Assembly: GCF_011397635.1 (NCBI RefSeq)
Contig: NC_064770.1
Location: 29,225,098 to 29,289,097 of the forward strand
Origin: Epinephelus fuscoguttatus
Taxonomy: Eukaryota; Chordata; Actinopteri; Perciformes; Serranidae
Direction: 5' to 3'
Length of the DNA: 64,000 nucleotides
Position numbers and translations under genes: made by a program. Below, piece by piece: positions 436-64,000 of this stretch. The notes beneath the pieces were generated by a model. It did no database searches. It was not told the origin of the DNA and saw only the letters and a program-made list of their open reading frames with translations. Each line of letters opens with the position of its first letter. The first letter of the stretch is position 1.

Positions 436-11892
<11,457 letters not shown>

Positions 11893-12180
11893 TCTTCCTC
11901 TCCAAACCGCTCCTGCTCTGTCACTGTGTTTCACCGAGGGACCACCGACGCTCTCAGCACAGATTAACGTTTGTCCGGAGCTTTAACCGAGCGGATTGTT
12001 TGATTGACGGAGCAAAGCGACTCGATCAGGGCCCTCTCTACTACCGGAGTGTAAATGGATTTCGTGCGCGAGCGCGGATTTGGTCTCAGCACCGAGCGTA
12101 AATGCGCGTGCCAAACTACGGTAATACAGGTGCGTTAGATATGGTTCCCAGGGTGACTTGCTCGGGCGGAGTCGCGTCAG
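11893..12180 (-). promoter_or_regulatory. mapk3 5' flank, CpG-rich promoter region
   Basis: The stretch just upstream of the mapk3 start codon is rich in CpG and GC-box-like runs and contrasts with the AT-rich surroundings, as expected for a housekeeping promoter and 5' UTR. No TATA box is obvious. The exact transcription start cannot be set from sequence alone. Confidence 0.55.
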
Positions 12181-17300: not shown

Positions 17301-19067
17301 GTCTCACTTAGTCTCCAAGCGGCCTATCCTGCAGTTTGTGTCCATCAAGAGGAAAGACTGCGGGGAGTGGGCCATTCCTGGGGTTGGTGGCTTTTTTACT
17401 TCTTTTACAAGCTTCACTGATTAGGGTGTGCCTATTATGATTTGCTCACAGCTATTCAAGAATGCTCAGGGACAATAAAAAGAATTAAATGTTAAGACAT
17501 GGACAGGTTTGAGTGGTTTCTGGTATGTAAGGTGTCACGGCCATGTGACTTGCCTATTTATTTGTGTGCGTGTGCTTGTTTTGTAGGGCATGGTAGATCC
17601 AGGGGAGCAGGTCTCTCTCACGCTGCAGCGGGAGTTCTCAGAAGAAGCGTTGAATTCGTTGGCAGTCCCGCCAGCAGAGAGAGTGAAGATCAGTGAACGC
17701 ATCACCAAACTCTTCAAATCACCAGGGTTTCAGGTCAGCAGTTCACTCACTTGTTCACTGTCACATTTTATTCAACAAATGCTTCCATGAGGGAATCAGA
17801 AATATATTTTTTTTCTTCCTCAGGTCTATAAAGGCTATGTGGATGATCCTAGAAACACTGACAATGCTTGGATGGAGACAGTTGCTGTCAACTTTCATGA
17901 TGACTCAGGTATCAGTAATGAAGAAGAATGAGCCTCATTCACCAATATCTCTAAGTTAATTCTTAGTTTTCTTTTCTTGAGAAAGGTCTGAAGAAAAGTC
18001 TAAGTAAATGCCCTGAGAAATCCAAATATAAGTGTGTAAGACTACATGGCTATATTAATGCACAGAAACTGAAAATAAAAGTTGAGAGAATTAAGCACGC
18101 AGCTGATCAAGTAGGTTGTGATCTCAAATCTGAGGCCAAAAAAAGCCAAACACAGAAGAGAGACTCTGACCACCTCTCAGTCTCTGCAAATAGATCTACA
18201 CAGTCCTGGAAGATGCATTCCCTCCCCAGGGCTTAATCTGCAACATCTTGCAGCAGCAATAAATCTGCCACTGTGCAAATAGACCTGGAATGCAGAAATA
18301 GACCTACTTTGGGCCTATACATAACATGATCAATCACTAAGTATTGGATGGCACTGAAATCAAACAGTAAAATTAGACAGCGCTGATCAAATATAAACCA
18401 AGATTCTGTTACTGCGTTGCTGATATCTGGCCTCAAATGTTTTCTGAAGCACATTTTAGCTGGCAGTTTAAAGGCACTTTGCATTACTTTACCCACTAGT
18501 GGGAGTGTTTATTGGTCTGGTGCAGCGCAGTGCATTCTGGTAGTCAGGGGCCTAGCACAAAATTCTGGATCCTGTTCACAGGCTTTCTCTGTGGACCCAT
18601 CTGTACATCCACAGCTATTATTCATTCTAGTATCTCTGTGGGCTCACCTCACATGAGGGCCTTGAATACCACAGCCCACGTCATGTAGCACCAATTTCAA
18701 AAGTATTTGCATCTTTCTACTGTATAGACAGCACAGTTCTATGACAAGGCTGTCCTTCCAGCAGTGAAATGCTTCTTTAACAGTTGCTGAATGAGGCCCA
18801 ATGTTTTTTTTCCCTTTCTAACTATCCAAACCCTGTTACAGTTCTTGAGGTATTTTCTCTCTAGTGGCAACAAATGGGGTTTTTGTAGGACAATGACATA
18901 TCTCATATGTCGTTACCGTAGGCAACAGTGTGAGCGAGCTGCCGCTCCAAGCTGGCGATGACGCAGGACAAGTCCAGTGGGTTGATGTTGACTCGTCCTT
19001 CCCGCTCTTTGCGAATCATTCCCATTTCCTGGAGCTGGTTGCCAAAGAGAGGAAAGCTCACTGGTAA
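14356..19067 (+). CDS. nudt9: nudt9, ADP-ribose pyrophosphatase (Nudix hydrolase)
   Basis: Hydrolyses ADP-ribose to AMP and ribose 5-phosphate; the family enzyme is mitochondrial with a cytosolic form. Eight exons: 14356-14453, 15087-15365, 15515-15604, 16911-16997, 17271-17382, 17587-17733, 17824-17908, 18922-19067, giving 347 aa (human 350). The N-terminus is basic and hydrophobic with many Arg and no acidic residue near the start except one Asp, as in a mitochondrial presequence. Hallmarks seen: [45 protein letters not shown], and the Nudix box G223-x5-E229-x7-R237-E-F-S-E-E, then [19 protein letters not shown]. As in NUDT9 generally, the box ends EEAL rather than with the usual Gly. An internal Met65 just after the presequence could give a cytosolic form. 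The exon 5 donor (GTTGGT) is weak. The last intron holds a MITE. Confidence 0.95.
15928..16700. mobile_element. Fold-back MITE in nudt9 intron 3
   Basis: The left end AGGAATACTTCCACC...AAAATGACCATT pairs with the right end AATGGTCATTTT...GGGTGAAGTATTCCT. Internal arms pair as well: CAGT-GT-TGCTCAGTACTTCCCAAACAGACAG on the left versus CTGTCTGTTTGGGAAGTACT on the right. Pieces of the same family recur near 49015 and at 56900-57000. Confidence 0.75.
17928..18802. mobile_element. MITE in nudt9 last intron
   Basis: Imperfect inverted ends: GAGCCTCATTCACCAA on the left, GCTGAATGAGGCCCAA on the right. About 875 bases. A partial copy lies at 4010-4345. Confidence 0.6.
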
Positions 19068-22650: not shown

Positions 22651-22702
22651 GCTGTTTAGCTTCAGACAATAAAGGTGCCTTTATTGTCTGAAGCTAAACA
22701 GC
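22651..22702. repeat. Perfect 25-bp hairpin with AATAAA on both strands
   Basis: GCTGTTTAGCTTCAGACAAT plus AAAGG, a 2-base spacer, then the exact inverse complement. Each arm carries AATAAA in one orientation. Located about 350 bases before the GTPase start codon. Confidence 0.8.
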
Positions 22703-23047: not shown

Positions 23048-26000
23048 ATGTCTGGGAAGATCAAGAGCCGGAGTGCCGCTAACGCAGAGTCGATAAGCGG
23101 CGGGGTGTCCTGCGATGAACGCATCCTGAGGGATTGTCACCAACTGTACACGGATCCCGACAGTGGTGAGTTGGCTGACATATTTTGCTGGACTCAAACC
23201 TTCGCTGGAAATCCCTTCAACACTGACCTAATTGTCAATATAATAAAGCTAGCAAACTGTTTGCTGACCGGGGGTTAGCTAGCTAGCTTAGTAAGTTTGG
23301 AGACCTTATCCGTGCTACAGGGGGCTAACCGTTAGCTAACGTTAGCTGTTAAGCAAGGACTTTATGGATTGGCTGACGTTGTGCAAGCTAGCATTAATGC
23401 TAGTTTTAACAGCCAGCTGCCAATTAATTACTGATGAGTCAGCTACACGTTAACAGCGTTTTTGCAGTTGTACCTCATTATAAAGTGAGTTTTGGTTGGG
23501 GTCAGTTTATAAGAGTCCATCTAGGGGCGTCGCTAGGAATTCTGGGTCCCCGGAAAATTAATGAATGAATGAAATTAAGTACCGTGAACGCACTAAAAGC
23601 AATAAATGCTTTTATAAATGAAAATAACTACTCCTACAGAAGTGATTGTGGCCCTTCTCCAGCCCAGCTCACTCAAGCAGCAGTCTTGGTCCTGACTGCC
23701 TGACCTGAGTCCTGCAGGTGCAACCACAGCACCATGATGGCTCCAGTCTAACTTGATAGGTGTATTCTTTAATTTACATAAAAAAATAAAATAAAAAATC
23801 ATTGTGTTTTTTCCAGGCTTGATCACAGTCGCTGAATCTGTTGGTGTGAAGTTGCTGCCTCCCCGAAAAAAGATCACTGTGATGCTGATGGGCAACCACT
23901 CTGCTGGGAAAAGCTCCTTCATCAACTGGTAAGTATGTTGTAAGAAAGGATGTCCCAGTGTAGTTTACAGAGAGCAAGTCTGCCCACATTAAGCAAACAT
24001 GATCAAGATCAAGATTAACTTTATTGTCCCACAGTGTGGGAAATTGTCTTGGGCCCTACACCCATACTGCAGCCATAGAAATACAACATACAACATAATA
24101 CATAGACAAATCAACATCATACAAAACACAAAAGAGATAGATAGATAACATCACATGCTAAAAATACCTCTACAAAAATGCAAATCAGCAAATCATCATA
24201 ATCAAATTCCAGTTCTCTATCTGCCATTGTTTTAAAAGCTTTACAGACAGAGGTATGAATGGTTTTTAAATATGTCGAGTCTGCGATGAGGCACTCTAAA
24301 GCTCCTACCACAGGGCAGCAGCTTGCACTCTGTATGCAGAACATGAGAGGAGTCATTGATGATCTTATTGGCTTGACTTAGAGTAGCTTGCTCAAAAAAA
24401 TAGACTGCAAGGAAATGTGCTCTTTGACACCTATTATTCTCCAGTCTGTATTTTAACTGCACACAGAGGTTACCAAACCAAGCTGTGATACTGTACCTAA
24501 GTAGGCCCTCTAACAATGCCTGATAAAAAATTATCATAAATTTTTGATCATCACCATGAACTCTCAAAGTAAGAAATGCAACTGTTGTTGTAATCTGCTG
24601 CAGAGACTATCAACATGTGTGTTCCTGGTTAGGGAGGTGTCAACAAAGACTTCGAGATATTTATATGATGGGACCTGTGCCATGGATTGGATGTGGATGA
24701 CATCACAAAGTGACAAACGTGACAAAATGTTCTTGTCCAAGCCTGTACAGCTGATTTTGTGTGTGTCCTTGGTACTGTCCTTTATGCAATTTATTGGAAC
24801 ATTTAGCTGATAAATGCAATCCATAATGCATGAGTGCAGCTAAGATTTTACTGTGATCTTTATGTCAGCCAATACAGACTATTGATTTTGTAGAATAGTA
24901 TAGTTTTAATTTATTTAGCTTGGACAGTGGACAAAATATTTATCCTCCCCTGGAGCATCACTAAATTGTTTGTTGTGACCTGTTTTTTTTTTTTTTGGTC
25001 AGGTATGTCGAAGAGCACATCCAGCGCACTGGAGTGGCTATTGAGACCCAAGGCTTCAGCTTTGTAACAAGTGGGCGCAAGAGAGAATCTCTCACAGTAA
25101 GTGCAACAGTACAAAAACAATAAGGTGCCATTTGTTGTAAGTTGAGTTTATATTCACAAGGTAAAGGAAGCGTGAGCGTGACGCCTACTCCATCCTGTCC
25201 CTGAATAGCATCCACATTGAACGTCTTACAGATTACAAATACCTTGGCATCTGGCTAGATGACAAGCTTTCATTTAAAACACACGTGCTTAAGCTCACAA
25301 AGAAGGTGAGAATTAAATTGGGGGCATTGTACAGACTTTGGTCATGCTTCTCTTTAGAAAATAGAAGGACAATTATTCAGCCTACTATAGTCTCAGATTA
25401 TGGCGATATTTTGTATATGCATACAGCTCAATCCACATTAAAATCATTTGATAGCGTCTACCACAGTTCTCTCTGTTTTATTACTGCGGATGGTTTTATA
25501 ACTCACCACTGTGAGCTATATCAGAATGTGGGATGGTGTTCTCGCACTGATAGAAGGGAAAACATTGTCTCCTTTTTGTTTTATAAGGCATTGCTTGGAA
25601 AGATGCCCTTCTACCTCACTTCTCTTTTTAAAATCAAATCCATCTCTCATCAAACACACTCACAGGGATTTTTATCCCTTGAAACTCCTCAGATCACTTC
25701 AAAGCTCGGTAAATTAGTTTTTAGTTTTCTCGCAGCAAATAAATGGAAGGAGTTACAAGAGGTATTTAAAGTAGATAGGTATGTGTCATTAGGTTATATC
25801 AAGTATATGCTAGATGATATGGTTGTTTTACAGTGTTCCTGCTTTGGTTAATTGACAGACATGCTTTTCTACATATTACTATTTTTGTTGTTGTTGTTGT
25901 TATGTATCCGTCCTTTATTGCAGACTCTATTCTTAATATTTAATTTTTCATCTTTATATGATTGGTTTTTTATTGCTGTTTATAATTCTTGATACATTGC

Positions 26001-29000
26001 TGCTACTTACTTGTTTTTGGGTTTTTTAAAATATATTTTTTGGGACATTTTTGCCTTTATTGTGCAGGACAGGTAAGCGTGAAAGAGGGAGAGAGAAGGG
26101 GGATGACATGCAGCAAAGGGCCACAGGCTGGATTCGAACCCGGGCCGCTGTGGCAAGAGCCTTGTACATGGGGCGCCTGCTCCAACCACTAAGCCACTGA
26201 CTCCCCGCTACTTATTTGTTTTTATGAACTTTTTCCATCACTTTATTGCAATTGCTATCATATATTTGAATCCCCCTAGCCCGTTGAATGTGAACTCAAG
26301 ACATTGCTGTAAAAGAGCTTAATGCGCAGTCAGTTTTCCCTGAATAAACAATGGTTTATTGATTGATATTTGGTTGAGGGAGAAGTAATGTGAAATTCAA
26401 ATGGACTTGTTACATCAACTTGAATTAGCTCCTCTGAAGTGTTTTCAGTTCTTCTGGAGATCCTGACACCTGCTTCACAAACTATCTCTGACAAATTTGT
26501 TTCTGTTTTTCTGTAGGGCAATGCCACCCTTCATCTATATCCACACTTCAAGCCTCTGCAAGAGTTCAAAGGTGAGATTGCTGCTCGAATCACAATCCCT
26601 CCCTGTTCTATTCTAAAGAGTTACCACAATGATGCACTTTGTCCCCCCTCAGGCTGCCACCACACTGATCCACTCCCAAATTCCCGGCATTTTGATGGAG
26701 AGATTTGCTGATTTGTTGCTTGGCGTAGTTTTTCTGCAGCCTGTTTAGGACGCAGCAACAGCACAGATTGGATCAAAGTGGCAGCACCCTCACATTTTTA
26801 TCCTTTGAAGACACTGATACAGTCCCTTGTCTTTATGGAAGAAAAACAAGGATCAAAAAGCAGAAAGCATTCACATTACTATGCTGCAATTGTGTTAAAG
26901 CCAAATGAAGGAACTTATTTGAAGCATGATGAATTTAATGCTCAGAGATCTGTACTGATTTGATCTCTGATCTGTTTGAATTGATATCTAGGTGTTTCAG
27001 AGTACTTGAGCACAGAGATCTGCACGTCGCGACAGAAACGGTTCAGCCTGGTGACATTTGTGGATTCACCGGGGTTGGTGGACGGTGACATGAAGTATCC
27101 CTTTGATGTGGACCAGGTTATCATGTGGCTGGGTGAGTGGCCACTAAATGACCTTGCTTGTTGTCATACTGTAGTTAATAAGGGTCCCCTAGGGCTTCTG
27201 TGGCAGCTGGTGTTGTGACACCGAGTTATTTTAAATGGCATTGTAAAAATAATACAAGTATAGAGGAGCAGTTCTGTTGAATGTGTGATGTCTTCAGTTA
27301 AAGTGAGATACCAGCCTCTAAAGGCACCAGGCCACGGTTATTTCTGCCACAGTATTTGTGTGCCATTAGTGATCTTTTGTCAAGTTGGCTACTGATCTCA
27401 CCACTTCCTTTGCGAACTAGCTTTTGTAAGCTTCTTTTTTTGTAAGCTAGTTTTGTAATCATCTTTCTGTGCAATTATATTGTCACAGTGTGATGAAACC
27501 GCACAATGATACAAAACTCTAAGTAATGAGCAAGTAAAACAATTAAAGAACTTTATACAATCCTACAGAAAAGTTTAATGAGTATCACTCAGGAGTTCTC
27601 GCTCTGACATCAAACTTCCATTACCATACGTTTTAATATAATAATAAGAAGATTTAATACAATAGACATTGTGTAAGAATCTGTTGTGGTGTAATAGTCC
27701 TTCCCACTTTCCCTCTCAGGTGATCTCTGTGACCTGATTCTGGTCTTCTTTGATCCCATGGGTCAGGCTTTGTGCAAGCGCACCCTCAACATAGTGGAGA
27801 GCCTGAATGAGAAACATGGAGATCGTCTGCGTTTTTACCTGAGCAAGGCTGACGAGGCTGGAGGAGAGTCGGACAGACAGGTACGCTCAGCAACAGCTCA
27901 CTTTAAAAGCCCATTTTTTTAGGACTGTCATCATTCTTCATTCACATGTATACAAATGCATTTTTTACTCACCTCAGTTAAAGGAGTTTCCACATGTATA
28001 AGAATTTTAAAAACAGAGGAGGAGGAATAATAACCTAAAACAGAGCATGTCCTCTTCATGTTAAAGTGTGTGGGTAGTTGAAAGCTGCTGTCGAGTGTCT
28101 TAACCAATGCAGGTTTTAAAGTATGTATGAGCACAGAAGTAGGGCTGTAACTCACAATTATTTTTCAGATTAAATGTTTTGTCTATAAAATGTAAAAAAA
28201 AAAAAAAAAAAAAAAAAAAGAGGTGAAATATTGCCCTGTCTAATTTCCCAGGGCCTAAGGTGACATCATTTCATTTGACCAACAGTCTAAAAGTCCAAAG
28301 CTTTTTAGTATGTTGTCATGTTTGATCAAAAGAGCATCAAATACTCATATTTAAGAAGCATGAAACCTGTAGATGTTTGGCTTGTTTTGCTTTAAAAGGA
28401 TTAAATTTGATGATCAGAACAGCAGCCAATTAATTTTCTGTCCATGAACTAACCATAAATTGACTGACTATTGCAGCTCTTTTCAGAACACACAAGTAAA
28501 TGAACATTCTCTCCCATAAAGTAAAGTCCGTTTGACCAGAATTATTAGCCATTGTCTATATCCACTCAAAAGGACCTATTTGTCTTTTTGTGTCTGTCTG
28601 TCTCAGAGAGTAATGATGCAGATTGTTCAGGAGCTCTGCAAGCGACCAGGACTGAACAAATGCGGTTTTGACATGCCCACCATCTACATTCCTAATCCAA
28701 GTAAGGTAAGGGTCGCACTTCATTGAGCTTCAGGTGATTGTATGCTGTTAATGCTCATGTCTCTGCTACCTCAACTTGTTCTTTGTAATTCCAATTATTT
28801 AAAGGTTAATATAAACATAATGATGGGCGCACATTGTAATTTGTTGTCTTTGTTCACAGCCAAGTCGCTGTGTGAACCAGATTGAGGAGGTTTGTCGCAC
28901 CGTCGAGAAAACCATAAACCAGACAGTCCAGAATACACTCAACTCCCTGGAGAAGGACTGTGAGATTATCAGTGAGGCCATCACTGATACACTCAATAAT

Positions 29001-30730
29001 GACAGGTAACACACAGAAACAGTTTGTGCCTCAGAATGCAGTATAGTTTCATGACCTGACATGCTTTATTGTTGCACTACTAAAAAAAATTATGTTCAGT
29101 GTTTAACTTGATTGAAAAGAAATGTGTGCAGCAGCCAGTTGAGGTCACTGTCTTTGCACTTTTGTTTCATTGACTCCTATTCATCCCAACTGTAAGCGCC
29201 ATCCTGTGCAGATATTTAATCTTACTGAGACACATGCACAGTAGCATCAGTCCATGATGCCTTCAGAGAATAATCCGACCCTCTGCTCTCACAGGCAGAC
29301 CGGTACTAGGAACCGACGGGCGCGCTGTAAGAGCTGCTTCCTGACTCTGCTGGGCTTCACCATCCCCATGGCTCTGATGGCCTTACTGGTGCTGGGCCTT
29401 CTGTCCCAGGAGCTGCTGGAGGCGGCTATGGGCCGCGAGGGCAGAGAGATGCTCTCACTCTACCTGGTGAGTGTTCAAGGGAGTGCACCACACGCTGTTG
29501 TTTTGTAGGCGTTGCACAGTCGACATAAAGCAGTCAAGTCTGATTTTTAGCTGCCCTTGTAATCCACAGGCTCCTGTAGTGAGAGTACTGGAGTCCCTCT
29601 CTGTGGAGCAGCAGCTTTACAGTTGTGGCGGACTGGTCCTTCTCTCCTTCCTCCTGCTCATTATCGCACGCTTCTCCTTCAGGTAGGACAGCACCATCAT
29701 CTGCTCATCTACTGTTATTGTAATGTCACCATTTTCATTCATTGTAATATATTTTATTCTACATGAACTCTCAGTCCTCATTTACCCTTTGCTCTAGTGC
29801 AGTTTCATCTGCACAGTGCACACTTCAAGTTCAAATGTACATACTTGACAGTTAAATTTTTAAGAAAAAAATGCCTGTATCCAAGTTTCATAATGTATTT
29901 TATTTTATTTCATGTTATTTATTTTATTTTATTAAAAAATAAGAAAGAATCAAATAACAAACTCTCTTTAATCTTTTCAGCCTTGTCACTGTCTCGAAAG
30001 GGACTTCTCCGTCCGTTTAAGAGAGTATTCTCTAGAGTTTGTTGCTTCGATGCTGCCTTTGCTTTAGTCACCTGAATTAACTGTATTCCAGTGAAGGTTT
30101 AAATTCGTTGCCGTCATTACGTTGCTGTGCATGAAAGCCTCTTGAGTAAAAACACTTGTGTGACAGATGACATGAAACAAAGGATCAGATTGGGCCCAAT
30201 ATAGTCGACACCAGTCAGTAGTACAGTTTGGTACATAAACTACATTTGTACTGTATGTAGTATCTTTGTATCTGAGATTGTTTTGGTGTCTATTTTCTCT
30301 TGCCCGTGGTATTTTACAGGTTGTTGTGTTTTTTTACTGCAGCTGTGACACTTTGATTTCCCTTTGTGGAATCAAGAAGATAATCTGTTAAGCAGCTGCA
30401 TGTGATCTGGGCTCCCTGTGATTTTGCAGCACTGCTCATGACAAAGGATAAAAACAAACTTTCACATTTCTTATCAAACTCCCTTCAATTCTTTGCAGCA
30501 CTCAACCAACTCTGTCAGGCAAACAAAAAAGGCAACTGCAGGAGAAGCTGGAGTACATCCAGGAGGTGGTCAAGACCAAAAAGGTATTACAAGTGTGTTT
30601 GAGTATGACTAAAACGGTACTAATAGAAATGCATTATTGGGATTTTAAACTGTCTAATCTTTGCCTGTAGAAAAAGCTGTATGAAGATTACCTCCGTCAG
30701 AGTGTCAGCGATCAGGACATGGACTTGTAA
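23048..30730 (+). CDS. Unrecognised dynamin/EHD-like GTPase with C-terminal transmembrane hairpin
   Basis: Twelve exons: 23048-23165, 23817-23928, 25003-25096, 26517-26571, 26992-27132, 27720-27880, 28607-28705, 28860-29005, 29295-29466, 29570-29682, 30499-30583, 30671-30730. All are GT-AG and in frame, giving 451 aa. Seen: P-loop GNHSAGKS (65-72), DSPG switch (151-154), LILVFFD strand and SKAD G4 motif (215-218), a helical segment (about 228-305), a basic Arg/Lys/Cys cluster (309-323), TM helix about 324-345, a 38-residue loop, TM helix about 384-400, and a charged coiled tail (about 405-451). The G4 context and the YPFD..Q..W stretch resemble EHD proteins and sarcalumenin, but sequence agreement is modest. 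TM pair plus coiled tail resembles atlastin and mitofusin. By inference, a membrane-remodelling or tethering GTPase of an internal membrane. I do not know a named orthologue. Start context has A at -3. Confidence 0.85.
24001..24845 (-). pseudogene. Non-LTR retrotransposon 3' fragment, broken
   Basis: On the minus strand, pieces such as FYQALLEGLLRYSITAWFGNL match the region after the reverse transcriptase of fish CR1/Rex1-type LINEs. Further pieces (QANKIINDSSHVLHTE) follow, then a 3' tail with TTTCCCACACTGTGGGACAA and TTAATCTTGATCTTGATC. Frames are broken. Lies in intron 2 of the GTPase gene. Confidence 0.65.
25160..25855 (+). pseudogene. LINE reverse-transcriptase C-terminal fragment
   Basis: Encodes ..YKYLGIWLDDKLSFKTHVLKLTKKVRIKLGALYR.. 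in one frame, the thumb region of non-LTR reverse transcriptases, then an open stretch from 25285 to 25851. Truncated at 5'. Lies in intron 3 of the GTPase gene and is not an exon. Confidence 0.7.
26030..26212 (-). mobile_element. tRNA-derived SINE
   Basis: Reading the minus strand: GGGGAGTCAGTGGCTTAGTGG carries a pol III A box, then CCGGGTTCGAATCC is a full B box, followed by a pyrimidine-rich body and an AATAAAGGCAAAAA end. Typical of fish tRNA-derived SINEs. Confidence 0.8.
28140..28485. mobile_element. hAT-like MITE in GTPase intron 6
   Basis: Left end TAGGGCTGTAACTCACAATT; right end reads ACTGACTATTGCAGCTCT, roughly its inverse. Contains a long poly(A) run at 28194-28219. Ends resemble those at 8152 but match less well. 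Confidence 0.55.
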
Positions 30731-30789: not shown

Positions 30790-30795
30790 AATAAA
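30790..30795 (+). terminator. Candidate poly(A) signals of the GTPase gene
   Basis: AATAAA lies 60 bases after the stop codon at 30730. A second AATAAA at 31446-31451 could serve a longer 3' UTR of roughly 720 bases. Which is used cannot be told from sequence. Confidence 0.45.
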
Positions 30796-33700
30796 AGCTT
30801 TGCCAAGGTTTCACACCAGCCGTCATGTCACTGACCACTAGATGCTGCATACTGTGGAAGTGTGCAGATGTACATTTTAAGCACATGGTACACTTGTAGA
30901 AAAGCTTTGGTGCTTTGGATACTGTAAAGTTTGTTTACGTATTAGATGGTGTTACCTCTGTAAACGCTCCAAAACCACACTACCTGCAGATGATTAGTGT
31001 TTGGAGATGACCTTTTGTTACTGATCACTTATTGTTGTAAGCATTTATATACATGTATTTTGTGCCTCTGCACCAGTCAAATGAATACCACTTTAAGATA
31101 TTTAAACATTTTCAAACTATTTATAATATTTCTTTATCAGAGAAATTGTATTTTGGTTATATGGCATATAGCACTAGTTTATATGAGTCACTTTGTATGA
31201 GTTTCCGAAGACTTTCACCAGCATTTTTATACAGTACTCTGGCTGCTTGGTATCATGAAGTTACAGTTTGAGGTATTAATCCAGGTCTCATCATGAATGT
31301 CTGTGAAAGGTAATGTGTAGAATATTCAATTATCCACACAACTCTTGTTATTGAAGTAAATATCCAGCAATCGAACATTTTATCAGTGAAGTTTTTGTAC
31401 TTTCCTGTTCTATATTGTGACCATGTTTTAACTACAAATGAATTAAATAAATAGTGTTCAATATACTGTCGGAGGTTCCTTATTGAGATTAAGGCCCCAT
31501 CTACACGCATGCAGATATTTTTGTAAATGGATATTTTTCTCTACGTTTTGGCCTCTTTTCCACGTGTAAACAGACAAAAACAGAGATTGATTGATTGATT
31601 GATTGATTGAGGTGAAGATTTTTAAAAAAAAAACAAAAAAAAACTAGAGGGGTCTAGATGCAGTCTTGCAGACTACTCACTTCACCACAAGAAAGAAACA
31701 AATCTTAAGAGGAGTGCATTTCAGGTTTTAGTTGTGCATGTGATCATTTCTCCGTACTTCTAAATTCCTTGACTCTCCGGTTTGAATAACAAGTCAGGTA
31801 CCACCCTGAAGATCTTAGATACAGTCTCTGCAGAAAATGTCTGCCTCTAGTGGACTGATGCCTTTACAAAAGGGTTAGTGCCACATTTTGGGATATCCTT
31901 TGTTTTGATTTTCATTAGGTGGGAGTAATGACATGATGCTCTGCCCAAATCCTGTTTGAAAATATCTGCATTTGAAGATGACAGATGATTATTGATTATG
32001 TGTAACCATACAAAAATGTGTGTTGTTTGGGAAAAAGTGTTCTGAAGTCGCCACATCAGAATCAGAGTAAGGTTTATTGCCACGTTGGTTTTCACATTCA
32101 GTGAAAACCAACTTGATGTTTTGATGCCTACAATTAAACTTTTTAAAGGAAATAAAAACAAAAGCAAGTCACCGGAAATGTGAAAATACACAATAAAATG
32201 GTTATAGTATATCTGCAGGGTGTCTTAAATTCAATTTTATAAATATTTGGCCTTAAAAGTCATTAAATAGAATTTGTGAGGTCTTAATTACTTATATGTT
32301 GGCAAAATGTAGATTAACCCAACTGGCTTTAACAACCATATTCCTACATACCTCTCTCTGCACAAGACCACATGTATACTACTTACATTTATACTTTCTT
32401 TAAATGTTTGATCAAGCAAAATATGATTTGTCCCAAAAATCGGTCTCAAGTTTAGTTAAAAATGTCTTAAAATCATAAAATGTAAGACCTTATTGTTATG
32501 TTTTTCTGTTACCAAATTTCATTCAGTAATTTGGATGTATGATGACACAGTAGCAAAGTTTCATGTTTTTCTTTTTCAGGGATATTAATCCTGCCTGAGA
32601 CAGCATCTGTCACAAATATCAGAGAGGTTTGGATAGATCTTCGATAATCTAGCTTTGCTAAAATGGATCCTGTGAAGAATTATCATGATCTGTTTTAATT
32701 TGTAAGATTGTACCTATATTTCTTCTCTGCTTCATAGTTTTGTTCTTGCCACACCCGTTTGACTGCAGATGAATAGGGGCAGGATGCATGCCATCCTCGA
32801 TATCAGATTTCTAGATGAAGAGATGAAAATCGAAGAGAGGCATGTAAGAGTATCAGGGCTGGAAAATGAAGTTGGATCAAAATAGACTCGCAGGTTTGGC
32901 CAGGGCATATAAATGGAAGGATTCTGCTGTAATCACAGGTGAAAACTGTTTATAGCATGTGGTTTCCAGTTTGGTGAGAACAGTGATTTCAAATCTTTTG
33001 TTTTAAATTGAAAAGCAAACAGAGGAAACTATAAACCTTGTAGTCATGCCTTTGTCAAGCAAAGGAAGCAGGTGCAAAAGGACTGCTGCCAATAAAACAC
33101 TGTTTTCCAGTTTCAAGGTTATTACCAAGCTTGACTTTTAACATCTCTGTCAAACACTGCCAAGTGAAATAATTTACAGATGAAGTTTATGAATCACTCA
33201 GATAGAGTTCTGCTCTTTTCTTTTATAAGAGGGATGATTAACCGCAAAGTGAAACATTATGAAGTCCCTCTAACATAACTCATATTAATTTAAGGTGTTG
33301 AACACATGATGTCATGCACATACAGTACGTTATTACATAATCTTTCCTTTGTGAAGGACAACAGAGGACTTCACATCATATCAACATGCAGTATGAAAAG
33401 TGACCTGCTTGCCAAAGCTGATAACACACAGCTGAAGCTCATTGTGCACTGGTATGTAGCACTGTGAACAGAAGAAACAGATTTCTGTGCTGATAGTTTT
33501 TTGTTGAATGGAGGAATTGCACTGGAAGCACTGGGAGCCATGACAGAGCAACACAGCCACATCTTTCATCATGACACAGAGTCCAAGAGACACCATTTCT
33601 GATCAGCAGGACCTTCCTCCTGCACACTGCCTTCAAAATAGGAGCTACATTTGAATTCTATCCTACATAAACTGAGGGATAATCTGAAAAAAAGAGAGAT

Positions 33701-35254: not shown

Positions 35255-38200
35255 ATGAGCTCCAGCGGTGAAGACACAGGTAATAAAAACTGCAGCGGTA
35301 AACTTTAATCTGCTTTACGTGTAACGGGATTGGTTGTGAGGTGATGTGCTGTCACCTTTACAGTTTGAGTTTTTAGTATACAGTAATGTAAACTTGTTGT
35401 TTGTCTGCACTGTGACTGAAACCTGTTGATTGTGAAGCAGCTGTGGTCAGTAAACCGTTTAACGGCCTGTTAGCATCGTTGACCATAGAACAGGCGCTGC
35501 TAGCCGCTAGCTAACACTTTAGCTTAACTAAGTTAACTGTCAAAACTGGGGTCCAGCACCTTCTATAAACCGCGTTAATTCAGTACAAGAGCTTAGTTTC
35601 ACTTCCTTCATTTGCTAGTATCATAGACAGTGGTGTGACTACTGTACCAAGTCATATTTGTCACAACAGATTCTTCTCTATGTGCTGCAGGTGGCTTCAT
35701 TAGCAGTTTAGCAACTTTAGGTCCCTTATCATGTTAAGTGTTTACCCGTTTGCTAAAACATGAGCAACAAGTGTTACTGTAAAGTTGTCGAACATAATAA
35801 GACAGATTCTCAGCTGTGCTTTGCCACATTAGTCAAAGAAATACAACGAAGTGTGTGTGTGTGAGTGTGAGTAAAGTCTCTACATATAATGGCAGCAACA
35901 GTAATCCTAATGTTGTGTTCAGGGTCCAGGAGATCCAGGGATCTGACAGCTAAAAAAAAAAAAAAGATAGGCCTCCTTAAAGGTCCAGTGTGTAGAATTC
36001 AGGGCATCTATAGGCAGAAGTGGTATATAATATCTATAATCACCTGAAAATAGGAATTGTTGTGTTTTCATTACCTAACAATAAGCTGTTTATATGTACA
36101 TATGGAAGGGATCCTCCTCCACAGAGTCTGCCATGTTGAAAATGGATAAACCAAACACTGGCTCCAGATAGGGCCATTTGCATTTTCATGTCAGCCACAA
36201 TAATTTTCCTAAACGCTTGGTGCACAGGAGAGATTTCAGCACTGTAACCTCACTGCTAGATGCCACTAAATCCTAAACACTGGACCTTTAAAACAGATAT
36301 TAAATTAAATTGCAGATTGATAAAAAAAAAGTGCAAGGGATTTATTTCAGCCTTATATTATTTAACAAATTGAACATTGAACTTAACACAAAATACACAT
36401 TAAACAGGATGACAGTTACATTTTAAAGTGCAGTTTTCTACTGATATTCTCTTTTACAGTGTGTTTATTGTGCAAATTGAAATCACGATGACAATGAAGA
36501 AAAAATATATGGTACAGCCCTACTACATGCATTGTATTGTGTAATGCATTCACTTGAGAATAATGGCTTGGTCGACCCCCAGCTACTCAGCCCCATCCTG
36601 GGCTTCACTTGCGATCTTGTTGGCTGTGACTCCCACTCGCTGCACTTAGTGGGGGCAAATCAAAGCAGATTTTTTTTCCTCAAGTGAATGCATTACGCTT
36701 TTGTAATTATCACATCACCCAGACACTGAATATTAACATAATAACTTAGAAAACTGATTTTATTTCATCGCCTGTTATGGTCTATTTGACCCCAGATCTA
36801 AGCATGAACAGTAAATTTACATACTGTACATGTCTTTATCTGTGATTGACAAAAGGAATATATATGTATTGATTTGATTTGAATATATATGTATTGATTG
36901 ATTTTATTCTAGTGAAGTCTTGTCTTGCTTACAAGAGCAGCAGGATGAAAGCTGAAGTGTTTGGGGCTACATTATCTGCTCAGATTCAACCAAACGCTTC
37001 AAAACTCATTGGACGATGCTTCACAGTGCAGTTGGACAATGACCTGAAGCATACTGCAAAAGCAACCAAAGACATTTTTAAGGCAAAGAAGTGGAATGTT
37101 CTGCAATGGCCAAGTCATATCATCTGACCTGAATCCAAGTGAGCATGCAGTTCTCTTGCTGAAGCCAAAACTGAGGGCAAAACACCCAAAACACAAGCAG
37201 GAAGTGCAGATGGCTGCAGTAAAGGGCTGGCAGAGCATCACCAGGGAAGAAACCCAGCATCTGATGATGCCTATGTGTCCAACACTTCAGGCAGTCATTG
37301 ACTGTAAAGGATTTGCAACCAAGTATTAAAACTGACTGTTTAATTGATGATTATGTTAGTTTGTCCAAATACTTATGAGCCCTTAAAGTCGGGGGACTGT
37401 GTGAAGAAATGGTTGTCATTCCTACACGGTTCATACTATATTTTTGAAAAAAAGCCTTAAATGAAAGCTGAGAGTCTGCACTTTAAGCAGGTATTTATTG
37501 TTTCATTTAAAACCCATTGTGGTGGTGTACAGAGCCAAAATGATGACAACTGTATCATTGTCCAAATAATTATGGACCTGACTGTAAGCTTCATTCTCCT
37601 CATTGATCTCCCTCTGTACCAAACAATGTGATCAGCTGGTTATGCTCCTGTCATACACTCAAACAACTAAGAATGTTGTCAGATTGGGTCAATCATGGAC
37701 TAATCCTTGCTCATAAATACACATACACACCATTACACAACTGGCAGACTTGCATGCAACTTTCAAACAGCTCTATCAGTCTACTCTGTGCACAGATAAC
37801 AAGGATGACATAAACATGCTGTAGTTTTACAAAAGTGAGTGATGCAAAGAATTTAGAGCGGCGTCCTACAAAGTTCCCAGCACATAGATCCGTGACATCA
37901 GATTGCTTTCTTCTTATCTTACAGTTACATATTTAAAGGTCTTGTCTGATAGCTAGTAACGCAGATTCCTTTTTGTTGCATCACCTCACTGTTTCTCATA
38001 CTGGTGTGATTCCGACCCTACTGATGCAGACATCCTCAAGACAACATAATGAAGGCAAAACACACGACAACCTGCTGTTTATCATTTTTCAGAGGCGAGC
38101 CTGCAGGCCCAGCTAGCCGAGTGCCGAGCTCAAGTCGAACACTGGCAGGGCGTGGCGACGATCTGTGAGCTGAGCAAACAGGAGGAACTGGCAGAGCTAC

Positions 38201-41200
38201 AAAAACAATGTGATCAAGAGATCCAGTCTCTCCAGGAGGCTCTCAGAGGTCAGTATGTGTGTAAGTGTGGTTGGCTGTGCCTTCGTGTTTGCATGTGCCT
38301 GATAAGCACAGTGAGTTTGTTACAGTCCTTTTTTGTCTAATTATATATGGTTAAATATTTTTTATATATTTCTTTCTTTTGTAAATCAGAGCCTAAATAA
38401 TTTGGATCTCCTTTGGATATGTTTTAACGATAAAAACCTGTTGAAGATGATACTTTTAAACTGCAAAAAATACTGATACTGTGTTTTTAAGGGATTTTTT
38501 TTTAAAAAACCTGAACAGCTCTAGGTTTTATGATTTTCTTTTTTTGTTCCTCTTTGTGTAGTTTCTAAACTTCCAAATGAATTAAGTAATATTAATTACA
38601 ATGTTGACTTTCAATCAATAGTATTAGTTTAACATTTAATACAAAGGTCAGAAGGAACTGACTAAAATGTTGGTATGTTGCCAAGCTATTCAATAAGGTG
38701 AAAGGTCAGAAGAGGAGTGGGAAACATTGACATGCTCCTTTTTAAAACAATGAAAGTTTGCAATGGTGTTAAAACATACTATAACTAACATATTGTTAAC
38801 AAAATAGGAAGTAACATAAAATGCAGCTACACTTTTTTTAAAGGTATTGTGAGCTTTTAATCTCGGCCTTTTAGCTAAACCAAATATTGTTCATCTGTCT
38901 GAGTAAATTGTTTCATTATTATTTTATTATCCTGTCGTGTTTACAGAGACAGCAGCACAGTATGAGGCCAGGATATCTGTTCTCCAGTCTCAGCCTGTGG
39001 AGTGGAGAAGAGCCAGTGGGCAGAGCATGGTCAGTGTTTAATGTTGTGTCTTTACTCTTGAATTGTTCCCAATGTTCTGGACTTAATCCCAGCTTTTTTT
39101 TTGTACCTGTCAGATGAGTGGAAGGAAAGGCAAGATGGAGGCAGATGAAATGAACAGAACACACACAACCAACAGCCTGACAGATGCCGAGGCCACGGCG
39201 TCACCAGACAGAAACTCACACCAATCAGCGGAGCTCGACACAGTGGCGGAGGGAGAAGGACCATCGCTTATAACAGAAGGGTATTTTTCACTGCGGCACT
39301 GTGACTCAGCCTCGCTGTCGTCATTCTCCTTAGACACGCCGTCTCTGCCCAGAAAACTCAACGCACAGGACGACACTGACTCTCTGCTCTCCACTGGAAC
39401 TTTGGTGCCTGAAGCCATCTACCTGCCGCCAGCCGGACACAGATTGGTCACGCACAACGACTGGGATTCACTAAATGCTCAGGTATGTATGTAAAACTAT
39501 GATATGAGAGATCAGGTTTCTTATATGAAAAAAAGAATATTCACGCCATTCCATGGGGCTCATACACATGTCGTGTCTTTCACTTCCTGGAAAACGTGAG
39601 GTCAGGTGCTGGGTGCTACACTTGTGCTAAAAATTGATTTGACAGCGCAAAAATGCAGCATGTGTTCAGGCCCTTACACTTAAATCTGTGTAGTTTTTCT
39701 GATTATAGCAAGATTTTGGTCCGACTAAAATCTTCCTCATAGACAGATGACTTTGTGGCGTAATGACGTGACGGTGTGGTGTGTTGGGCAGGTGTCAGAG
39801 CTGCGAGTGGAGGTGAGTCGACTGCAGGCTGAGAAGGAGGAGCTGGAGAAAGAACTGGACACACAGACCAACCACACACACAAACAGGTGAGCAGTGCTG
39901 CTCTGAGTGTGGGTATACAGCACATACAGTACTTCACAATAAAAACAGAGCACATTAAACATGGGGAGAATCAAAGAAACACCAAAAACTAAACATATTT
40001 AAAAGTCGTAAAACATAAATGGAATCACAGAGAAGACATTTTAAAAAAGCGGGTTATGAAAGTGATTTAAAAGATCAGAGTTTGCAGCCCTGATCTCCTC
40101 AGTGGGGTCCTTTCAGACTCCAGGAAATCTGACTGCACAGGCTCTATCACCTTTGTGAATTAATTTGGACCTTGGAACAACAAGACACAATGCATCTGAT
40201 TAGCTCAGGCTGCGGGAATGGACAAAGGGCAATTAAAAATATGATAAACAACTTGGGATGAGGCCTTTCAGTGCTTTGTACATAATCAATAATCTTGAAC
40301 TCAATTCTAAAAGTAACATGTAGCCACTGTAGGGAAGCCAGGATCAGTGAAACGGGATCATGTTTCTTTGCTGTAGTCACGGTGGCAGAGTTCTGGACGA
40401 GCTAAGGGTGGTAGAGGATTTGCTGATGTCAGAGAGTAAGGGAACATAGTCGTCAGATCGACTAGTTATGACAGTATATACACGTTAATTTTTTTGTTTG
40501 TGTGTGTGTGTTCAGGTATCAATGCTCCAGTCACAGGTCCACACTTCAGAGGCCCTTCTCCAGGATCTGCAGAAATCTTTTAGCCAATCACAGAACGCTG
40601 TCCAGAGTCGGCTGGTGAGTGATGATGATCCTACAGAGTGTGTGTGACTGTGTCAGGGATTGTCCTTAAAGAAAAAATTCACCATTTGGGAGATACACTT
40701 ATTTGCTTTCTGCCTGAGCGTTAAATCACTACCAAGCACACGTCTCTCCAGTAGTTATGAAGCTGCAGCTAGTAAGTTTAGCTTAGAATAAAGAGTGGAA
40801 ATCACTCAACCACACATACAAAAACGCAGTGTGAAAGCAAGTTGCTTGGAGGTACTTGCCTTTGCACGGAGCCAGGTTAGCACTTCCCCCCCTTTGTCCA
40901 GTTTATGCTCAGCTAAGCTAACCGTCTGCTGGCTCCAGCTACATATTTATAGTACAGACACAAGGGTGGTGTTGATCTCTTCATCTGACTCTGCAATAAA
41001 GAGAATACATGTATTTCTTATAGTTATTTCAACCATCTTGATTAAATATGGAAAGATGCCAAGAAAAGCAATAAAGTTGTGGCTCTTAAATTGTATTTTT
41101 GCCATGAATGTGTAACCCAGGTGCATGATGACTCACTCATCCACCACACACTAATTTAGCCAACAGTAGTCAATTGATTCCCAAAGCAAGACTATATAAT

Positions 41201-43418
41201 TACCCATAAAGTAAGATAAGGTTTATTAGTGCGTTATTCAGTACAAGTAGTTGTTCAAACCTGTATCTGTGTGTCCAGGCAGAGCTGTCCTTTTCCCAGA
41301 GGAAGGTGTGCAGTGAGCTGTCCAGACTGAAAGGAGAAGAGGTCGAGGACCCTGAGCAACCAGACTCATCATTCCCAGCAACACTGCAGGTACAGTTACT
41401 GTTCTGGGTTTTTATTTACAGTGCTGCAGCAAGGAATCAGTTTTCTTAAAACTCATATAAACTTGTATCGTAGCACAATGAGTAATTTATTTGACACCGT
41501 CTTGTCTCACATCTTGTTGAATGAGGATAATGAGATAAAGAGTTTCACATAGCATCATAAAGGGAACAGAAACCAGTGAGAAGCTTGTTTATGTGACTTC
41601 CCTTTAGTTGCTGCTTTTCTTCATTTCAGAAAGTTCTTGGGATGACTGTAATTGTCTGAGCCCTTAGATTGTATGTTTGTCAACTTTTATGTGTGGACAA
41701 AGGTTTAATTTTGTGACCAGGTTGTCACTGCTCTGTCTCTGGAAGTACCTTGACCATCTCTCGGTAGTTTCAAATATTTATTTGGTTCCTTCAAGGTTAT
41801 ACTATGCAGGAATTGTCAGTTAGTGTTTTTAAACACATCATTCTAACTTGGCCTCTTCTCCCTACGCTGCTTATTTACACTGCAAGCTACTGTACTGTTG
41901 TGAGAGTGTTACATTTGTTCAAATGGAAAAACTGATCTATTAGCAAGCTAACAGCTGGTCTTCAATACAAGTTGTGAGATAGTGTTTGTGTTTTGACACC
42001 TTTTATGAATAGTAATGCTACCGCCTCATTGCTGCACAGCTTTATTGCAGACAGTTATTGTACTGTATGTGCCTGCTTGTGGTGTATGTATGTGTGTGTG
42101 TGTGTGGTGATTTTTGACCTGTAACCTACAGGGGGCACACAATGAGGAGCGTCTCCGCATCGAGATTGTCAACCTGAGGGAGCAGCTGGACACCCGGTCA
42201 GAGGAGAACGGTCTGTTGATTTTATTATTATTCAGGGCAGGTTTGCGACACTGACTGCTGTGACACTGACACATGTTTTATTTCCTCCTCCCTGCTCCCA
42301 CCTGCAACGCTGATCATCAGAAGTTTTAGAAGGTGAGTGAACAGCTCATGCTTATTATTAGTCTGGGAAGCCAATTAGTAGGTCTTGTGATTGGTGTAGA
42401 TGCACATTTCATTCAGCCTTTTTCTCACATTTAAAATTTTTACCCCCCTTGGTGAGACAGAAACTGAGAAAATGAGACCAACTTGTAATAAACTGTATTT
42501 TTTCTTTAATCATAATCTGCTTTGTTTGTGTGTGCAGTGCAGCTCTCCAGTCTGAAGACGGAGACAGAGAAGATCCAGGCTCAGAAGGACCACTTGCAGG
42601 CTGAAGTGCTGGCCTGCCGCACTGAGCTGGAAGCCCTGCGGGTGGCACTGTCTCATGTGCAGAACACCAACAAGGCCATTGGTAATGATAAAGTAAGTCC
42701 AATCTGTTCAGTTACTGCTGATGCTTCACACTTTTGTCTCAGTGACATCTGTAGTGCTGTTATTTGAACTGGTGCATTCGAGTCGTGTGAGAGTTTGTGA
42801 ACGGACGTTATGGTATAGTTTTGCTGTTAAACGTGGAGGCCTACAACTTAAATTCATCAAATGAAACCCAATCTTGTCCAAGATTCTACAAGTTTACATT
42901 GTGAATAGTATAAATGGTGATATCCACTGCTGCTGTTAGAGTAACTTTTGTTGATACTCCCACTGTGAGTCGCTTAAGTAATACATTGTCAAATCTGTTT
43001 TCTTGTGACTGTCAGGCGGCCCTGCATCAACAGTGTTTGGAGCTGCGCAGCCAAGTAATCAGTCTGCGCTCCCAGGTTGACACCAGCCAGACAGTACAGA
43101 GGGACTTTGTCCAGCTCTCCCAGTCGCTGCAGGTAAGAAGCAATAGACGGCTGTAGAAGTCAGCTTGAGTGGAGTAGGGATAGTGAAAATTGAAAAAAAA
43201 AGAAAAAAAAATAGCTAAAACTTTTTCTTGCTCTTGCAGAAACTGGTACAAATTAGTTCCATATTTTATCATTGACATATTTATGTTTTACTGACCCCTC
43301 TCTCCCCCTTCAGGTGAAGCTGGAGGTAATTCGGCAGGCGGAGACTATTGAACAAGTCAAAGAAATCCTGGAGGGGGGAGTCAGTAAAGGTGGTTCCCCA
43401 CCTGCAGACGCCTCATGA
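35255..43418 (+). CDS. rabep2: rabep2, Rab GTPase-binding effector 2 (rabaptin-5 beta)
   Basis: Coiled-coil effector of Rab5 on early endosomes; the family joins Rab5 and rabex-5 in endosome fusion and recycling. Twelve exons: 35255-35279, 38093-38248, 38947-39029, 39114-39482, 39792-39887, 40516-40614, 41279-41389, 42132-42210, 42321-42332, 42538-42692, 43016-43132, 43314-43418, all in frame, 468 aa. Diagnostic stretches: DSASLSSFSL, LLSTGTLVPEAIYLPP, ERLRIEIVNLREQL, and the C-terminal QRDFVQLSQSLQVKLEVIRQAETIEQV, which mirrors human RABEP2. Heptad-rich helices occupy exons 2-3 and 5-12; exon 4 is Ser/Thr-rich and low in structure. It is about 100 residues shorter than human (569): an N-terminal coil segment between exons 3 and 4 and part of the central coil are missing. 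One exon is only 12 nt. Start context has A at -3. Confidence 0.92.
35977..36291. mobile_element. MITE, family A copy 2
   Basis: Left end TTAAAGGTCCAGTGTGTAG; right end ACACTGGACCTTTAA. 315 bases, in rabep2 intron 1. Shares internal text with 8847 and 44279. Confidence 0.88.
36905..37587 (+). pseudogene. Tc1-like transposon remnant, 5' truncated
   Basis: Encodes pieces of a Tc1-type transposase: QLDNDLKHTAKATKDIFK, KKWNVLQWPS, and in a shifted frame QEVQMAAVKGWQSITREETQ and QAVIDCKGFATKY. The catalytic DD and E region is interrupted by stops and frameshifts. The 3' inverted end with AATTATGGACCTGACTGTA is present near 37587; I do not see the 5' end. In rabep2 intron 1. Confidence 0.8.
40655..41000 (+). 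repeat. Common teleost dispersed repeat, copy 1
   Basis: Text such as TTCACCATTTGGGAGATACA, TTATTTGCTTTC and GTTTAGCTTAGAATAAAGA recurs, diverged, at 45580-46450. No coding capacity. In rabep2 intron 6. Confidence 0.55.

Positions 43419-45486: not shown

Positions 45487-64000
<18,514 letters not shown>

Follow-up and report, generated by a model that had tools for sequence, protein, structure and literature searches.

According to PMC7016017, the EHD proteins and sarcalumenin (SRL) probably derive from a dynamin-type GTPase of bacteria, and the closest bacterial relatives of both have a pair of transmembrane (TM) segments. PMC10000884 describes sarcalumenin as a luminal calcium-binding glycoprotein, and PMC11789081 left sarcalumenins out of its tree as highly divergent. 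Another described system in which a G domain is followed by a membrane pair is atlastin, in which middle helices, two TM segments and a tail come after the G domain, and which shows how such a layout acts (PMC10954664). The gene considered here occupies positions 23048-30730, on the forward strand, of a 64,000-nucleotide stretch of the fish Epinephelus fuscoguttatus (contig NC_064770.1, 29,225,098 to 29,289,097), and this whole stretch is called the window. The best explanation, with a probability of roughly 0.6, is that the gene is functional, that it is one of an old duplicate pair, and that its product, a member of the dynamin superfamily, passes twice through the membrane and belongs to a third branch of the EHD/sarcalumenin group. 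The placement beside EHD and sarcalumenin is the best reading of pairwise identities rather than of a rooted tree. Among the literature matches listed, no paper on this gene was found by title or abstract, and any name it may bear is not known to us; a predicted entry for it could well exist in sequence databases.

A twelve-exon gene and its paralogue

When joined, the 12 exons make 1356 nucleotides (nt), that is 451 codons and a single terminal stop, and the other two forward frames hold 23 stops apiece. All 11 introns are of the GT-AG type, in agreement with an earlier note on this DNA, which had proposed twelve exons with intact frame and splice sites. A translated search of the genome with the gene gave 19 exon-sized matches (E<=10), 12 of them at its own locus and seven on contig C6, and a paralogue of 448 amino acids was rebuilt within C6:22116564-22135555. 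It too has 12 exons and 11/11 GT-AG introns, with the same phases as in the window gene. The genome-wide matches are the basis for its seven exons 2-8, weaker local tblastn matches for exons 1 (E 9e-4), 9 (E 0.018), 11 (E 2e-4) and 12 (E 1.4), and exon 10 was picked by eye from the list of open frames; the weakly matched exons were accepted because their splice sites, phases and lengths agree with those of the window gene. Exons 2-10 are equal in length between the copies, the lengths of exons 1, 11 and 12 are 6, 3 and 6 nt apart, and intron lengths vary freely.

The two proteins are identical at 270 of 447 positions (60%), very unevenly distributed: 28/54 in the N-terminal part, 168/204 in the G domain (81-82%), 33/59 in the helical middle, 19/85 (22%) in the membrane region and 22/45 in the tail. 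Over exons 3-8 (696 nt) the copies differ at 190 nucleotides, which fall at codon positions 1, 2 and 3 in the numbers 36, 29 and 125. The nonsynonymous and synonymous distances (dN/dS) are 0.34/2.72 by NG86 and 0.32/1.66 by LWL85, a ratio that is rough because dS is near saturation. Both copies are under selection for their proteins now, or were so until recently. With a 12-exon paralogue and this third-position bias, the window gene is real and more than a product of chance, and the two copies make a real and unusual gene pair that is probably functional. The earlier reading of the locus as a working gene thus gains support from an intact gene with marks of purifying selection. That it should instead be a non-functional relic or an artefact of the gene model is very improbable indeed in view of the open frame, the intact splice sites, the matching paralogue and the third-position bias, and a pseudogene was rejected on these grounds, including the 11/11 GT-AG introns.

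The exons follow the parts of the protein in order. Exon 1 (23048..23165, 118 nt) holds the start codon and an N-terminus without a hydrophobic signal-like stretch, and exon 2 (23817..23928, 112 nt, as in the paralogue) encodes the P-loop GNHSAGKSS. The switch I region (IETQGF, T92) lies in exon 3 (25003..25096, 94 nt), more of the G domain in exon 4 (26517..26571, 55 nt), the G3 motif DSPG (DTPG in the paralogue) in exon 5 (26992..27132, 141 nt) and the G4 motif SKAD in exon 6 (27720..27880, 161 nt); the G domain ends in exon 7 (28607..28705, 99 nt). Exon 8 (28860..29005, 146 nt) encodes an amphipathic helical middle segment (residues ~261-309). It is followed by exon 9 (29295..29466, 172 nt), with a basic stretch, the first hydrophobic segment (~323-345) and the start of the inter-helix loop, and by exon 10 (29570..29682, 113 nt), with the remaining loop and the second hydrophobic segment (~383-401). 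The basic C-terminal tail, probably helical, begins in exon 11 (30499..30583, 85 nt; 88 in the paralogue) and ends with the stop codon in exon 12 (30671..30730, 60 nt; 54 in the paralogue). All of these lie on the forward strand, as does an AATAAA polyadenylation-like signal at 30790..30795, soon after the stop, with a second one at 31446. Two other features were seen at the locus. About 350 nt 5' of the start codon, at 22651-22702, there is a perfect inverted repeat with 25-nt arms and a 2-nt spacer, which perhaps belongs to a mobile element, and in intron 3 (25168-25851) there are open frames which by eye look like the final part of the reverse transcriptase of a non-LTR retrotransposon.

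The G domain beside EHD and sarcalumenin

The P-loop GNHSAGKS (residues 65-72), DSPG (151-154) and SKAD (215-218) are present as the earlier note had read them. The two copies have in common GNHSAGKSS, an IETQGF switch I in which the Thr corresponds to the second Thr of EPTT in the alignment, the stretch D(S/T)PGLVDGDM, and SKAD instead of NKAD. Pfam was scanned at E<=10 with the HMMER filters on, which drop most weak matches. The window protein gave Dynamin_N at 32.6 bits (cut-off 27) and MMR_HSR1 at 25.9 (cut-off 21.9); Dynamin_N was matched by both copies, which together with the P-loop, DxPG and xKxD motifs places them in the dynamin superfamily. Among the 12 families matched across the two copies there was no EHD-specific, GBP/atlastin or mitofusin family. 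Among solved structures (E<=10), seven chains were matched, six of EHD2 or EHD4 (6.5e-11 to 2.3e-10) and one of Toc34 (0.11), and a profile made from the two copies put the same six EHD chains at the top of 16 (E<=10). EHD2 and EHD4 are thereby the only confident relatives of known structure.

The likeness to EHD is thus that of a dynamin-type G domain, with EHD as the top solved match (E 6.5e-11) over at most residues 58-222. The identities are low: 40/161 with EHD4 and 39/157 with EHD2 (25%), and 44/156 with SRL (28%), against 60/164 and 65/162 (37-40%) between SRL and the EHDs. Of the earlier description of the G domain as EHD-like, membership in the dynamin superfamily and the EHD best match stand, but the domain lies at about the same distance from sarcalumenin as from EHD. 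Where EHD has EPTT in switch I and NKAD at G4, the window protein and its paralogue have IETQ and SKAD; after DxPG both copies are shorter than EHD by three residues and shorter than SRL by two; and the window protein, unlike EHD, has two hydrophobic segments. DUF5600, which we take to be the EHD helical domain that follows the G domain, was not among the matches of either copy, nor was any EH or EF-hand family.

Separate EHD loci are present in the genome. A search of it with DUF5600 gave 16 matches, 12 of them above the 26.6-bit cut-off; five loci of EHD type, two on C5 and one each on C9, C11 and C14, account for 15 of them, the one remaining match scores weakly (22.2 bits, C11:20.85 Mb), and none lies at the window gene (C19:29.25 Mb) or its paralogue (C6:22.1 Mb). 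An EHD4 fragment gave one chance match (E 0.32) among the first eight Dynamin_N loci, and among nine further regions one clear EHD exon (L037, 5e-44) beside chance matches at E 0.5-0.75. The intron near the EHD FLNR/F junction, compared by eye, is apparently not shared by the window gene. Membership in the EHD family was rejected, since neither DUF5600 nor an EH domain was found among the Pfam matches, EPTT and NKAD are missing, and the genome holds EHD loci elsewhere.

For sarcalumenin, the identity of the G-domain query is borne out by its exon matches in the genome. It gave 18 matches, which define two SRL loci, one at C19:23.46 Mb whose best exon is 98% identical and one at C3:31.67 Mb whose best exon is 88% identical; none of the 18 lies at the window gene or its C6 paralogue. 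Since two real SRL loci exist elsewhere, a diverged fish sarcalumenin was rejected. The SRL locus on C19 (23456161-23458613) shares its contig with the window gene, at a distance of about 5.8 Mb. Sarcalumenin has an N-terminal signal for entry into the lumen of the sarcoplasmic reticulum (SR); the window protein differs in having an N-terminus without a hydrophobic signal and two hydrophobic segments near its C-terminus.

The SRL loci also bear on the age of the pair. The two SRL copies, on C19 and C3, are identical at 84/92 and 72/79 positions over two exon pieces, and are thus more alike than the G domains of the present pair on C19 and C6. Because the SRL copies are closer and dS between the present copies is saturated, an old duplication, perhaps in the early vertebrate rounds, appears likelier than the teleost one.

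A rather unlikely alternative to a third ancient branch is a paralogue of sarcalumenin or EHD that has diverged and acquired its membrane pair secondarily. The G domain does align with both EHD and SRL over 156-161 columns, EHD is the best solved match, and the motifs VTFVDxPG and DLIxVxFDP (DLIFVFFDP in the C6 paralogue) are common to the window protein and SRL and absent from EHD, which keeps a placement on the SRL side in play. Yet the window protein is about equally far from the two families, and neither copy has what EHD and SRL have in common, an EPTT switch I and extra residues after DxPG (three in EHD, two in SRL). The apparent absence of the EHD intron, and a DUF5600 profile that detects the EHD loci while matching neither the window gene nor its paralogue, likewise speak against such an origin.

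The membrane region and its precedents

A hydropathy scan with 19-residue windows (at least 1.6) found two C-terminal hydrophobic segments, at residues 321-354 and 380-406 of the window protein and 316-346 and 376-401 of the paralogue, with about 37 residues between them in both copies. These lie close to the TM pair at about 324-345 and 384-400 given in the earlier note. A third hydrophobic stretch, at 166-187, is part of the G domain, where it is probably buried and not a membrane segment. The net charge (window protein/paralogue) is +5/+2 before the first segment, -3/-5 in the loop and +2/+3 after the second, so that the basic tail described earlier is also borne out. By the positive-inside rule, net positive flanks face the cytosol, and because the flanks are positive and the loop negative in both copies, the two ends of the protein are predicted to be cytosolic and should face that side. 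No hydropathy window reaches 1.6 before residue 166 of the window protein, which makes a luminal location like that of sarcalumenin unlikely. For the tail, the hydrophobic moment is moderate in either copy (0.49 and 0.51). Residues 408-446 of the tail match the end of the AIG1 profile weakly (16 bits, cut-off 27), with no such match in the paralogue; this is probably a chance similarity of helical sequence.

In its order of parts, an EHD/SRL-like G domain and then a TM pair, the window protein fits the bacterial layout of PMC7016017, a likeness to a printed description without sequence comparison. That bacterial pair is a better precedent than the atlastin hairpin. When the G domain was compared by tblastn with plasmids, one record was matched, at E 0.3, on a Calditerrivibrio plasmid, where it is annotated as a dynamin family protein. 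This plasmid (L046) carries two adjoining dynamin-family genes, at 2372-4072 and 4085-5366, beside IS200/IS605 genes, and the product of the first has one long hydrophobic stretch near its C-terminus. The four phage records that tblastn matched, at E 0.1-0.3, carry no dynamin annotation. Viral contigs gave 4 and 68 pattern matches in two pattern scans, none of which proved a relative by tblastn; such scans detect only relatives that keep short exact words.

Several observations, besides the motifs shared with SRL, weigh against a third branch that carries a bacterial-type membrane pair. The segments are called by the hydropathy scan alone, and the first residue of G4 is S rather than N or T. 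The alignment with the Calditerrivibrio protein is confined to the first 119-120 residues of the G domain (130 columns, 26%), and in the same scan that protein has a single 34-residue hydrophobic stretch (434-467) rather than two. The two pattern scans of prokaryote genome contigs, which likewise detect only relatives with short exact words kept, gave 30 and 52 matches, and no relative by tblastn. Finally, the membrane region is poorly kept between the copies, more as a spacer or anchor would be than an active fusion element. Because two hydrophobic segments persist with only 19 of 85 positions identical, the comparison suggests that hydrophobicity is what this region conserves.

The low conservation also bears on a true membrane-fusion GTPase, acting like atlastin in homotypic fusion of the endoplasmic reticulum (ER), which is judged unlikely. 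The order of G domain, helical segment, two hydrophobic segments and tail is that of atlastin as PMC10954664 gives it, and the moderate hydrophobic moment of both tails is in keeping with such a role. Unlike atlastin, however, the window protein has a G domain of EHD type, no GBP match and a longer inter-helix loop. The loop of atlastin is shorter than the ~37 residues found here, a length that itself counts against fusion, as do the missing GBP/atlastin match and the loosely kept membrane region. The 'atlastin-style hairpin' of the earlier note accordingly survives as an order of parts, but not in its spacing, and neither atlastin/GBP nor mitofusin is matched in Pfam. Membership in the atlastin family was rejected, there being no GBP family among the Pfam matches. 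Mitofusin/Fzo is likewise a membrane-anchored protein with a dynamin-superfamily G domain and has helical parts on both sides of its membrane part, but it is much longer than 451 amino acids; the window protein is far shorter and has no Fzo_mitofusin match. No Fzo_mitofusin family was found among the Pfam matches of either copy, and mitofusin membership was rejected as well.

Neighbouring genes and possible function

Neighbours in the window were chosen with a codon-usage scan, their names were assigned by eye, and four are backed by sequence search. They are an ERK1/MAPK3-type kinase gene (3400-11970, reverse strand), an exon of a NUDT9-type ADP-ribose pyrophosphatase (17587-17715, forward strand), rabaptin-type exons (38092-43135, forward strand; one of two stretches tried was above the Rabaptin cut-off) and a SERCA1-type gene (51800-60725, reverse strand) about 21 kb downstream of the window gene. 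A codon-biased open stretch at 18909-19043 (reverse strand) has no Pfam match. We take human MAPK3, RABEP2 and ATP2A1 to lie on 16p11.2. Around the C6 paralogue, PLBD2-, RBM19-, SLC2A- and AIFM3-like exons were recognized by eye, and the Phospholip_B and Rieske profiles back two of them. Five exon queries from the window neighbours gave no match (E<=0.01) in 70 kb around that paralogue.

The SERCA1-type gene, together with the kinship of the G domain to that of sarcalumenin, could suggest a protein that is anchored in the membrane near SERCA and regulates calcium stores, a cytosolic-face parallel to sarcalumenin. This is quite improbable. Neighbouring vertebrate genes are rarely functionally linked, so that adjacency counts for little; the N-terminus, which lacks a hydrophobic signal, does not point to the lumen; and two SERCA exon queries gave no match (E<=0.01) in the 70 kb around the C6 copy.

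As a two-pass member of a third EHD/sarcalumenin branch, the protein would consist of a cytosolic nucleotide-binding G domain and a short amphipathic helical segment, then two membrane helices whose short, acidic connecting loop lies across the membrane from the cytosol, and a basic helical tail that returns to the cytosolic side. It would be anchored permanently in an endomembrane, most likely that of the ER or SR. The nucleotide would be either ATP, as in EHDs, or GTP. Binding of nucleotide may lead the G domain to dimerise or oligomerise, and hydrolysis may then tether or reshape the membrane, by analogy with atlastin, mitofusin or EHD. We infer membrane tethering or remodelling as the likely function, and rank it above fusion because the G domain is strongly kept and the membrane region only loosely: an anchor combined with an interaction between G domains would fit this pattern of conservation better than a specific fusion helix.

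A more ambitious account is held tentatively, at clearly less than even odds. By this account the gene would represent a third branch of the EHD/sarcalumenin group in animals, which retained the TM pair of its bacterial ancestors, underwent duplication early in vertebrates and in mammals either disappeared or escaped notice; the protein would be a membrane-bound remodelling nucleoside triphosphatase of a kind with no studied member. If true, an animal protein with this G domain and membrane pair would be a living intermediate. It would also be a compact model in which to understand the working of family members both anchored in membranes and soluble, and it may prove to be an unstudied vertebrate membrane-remodelling factor.

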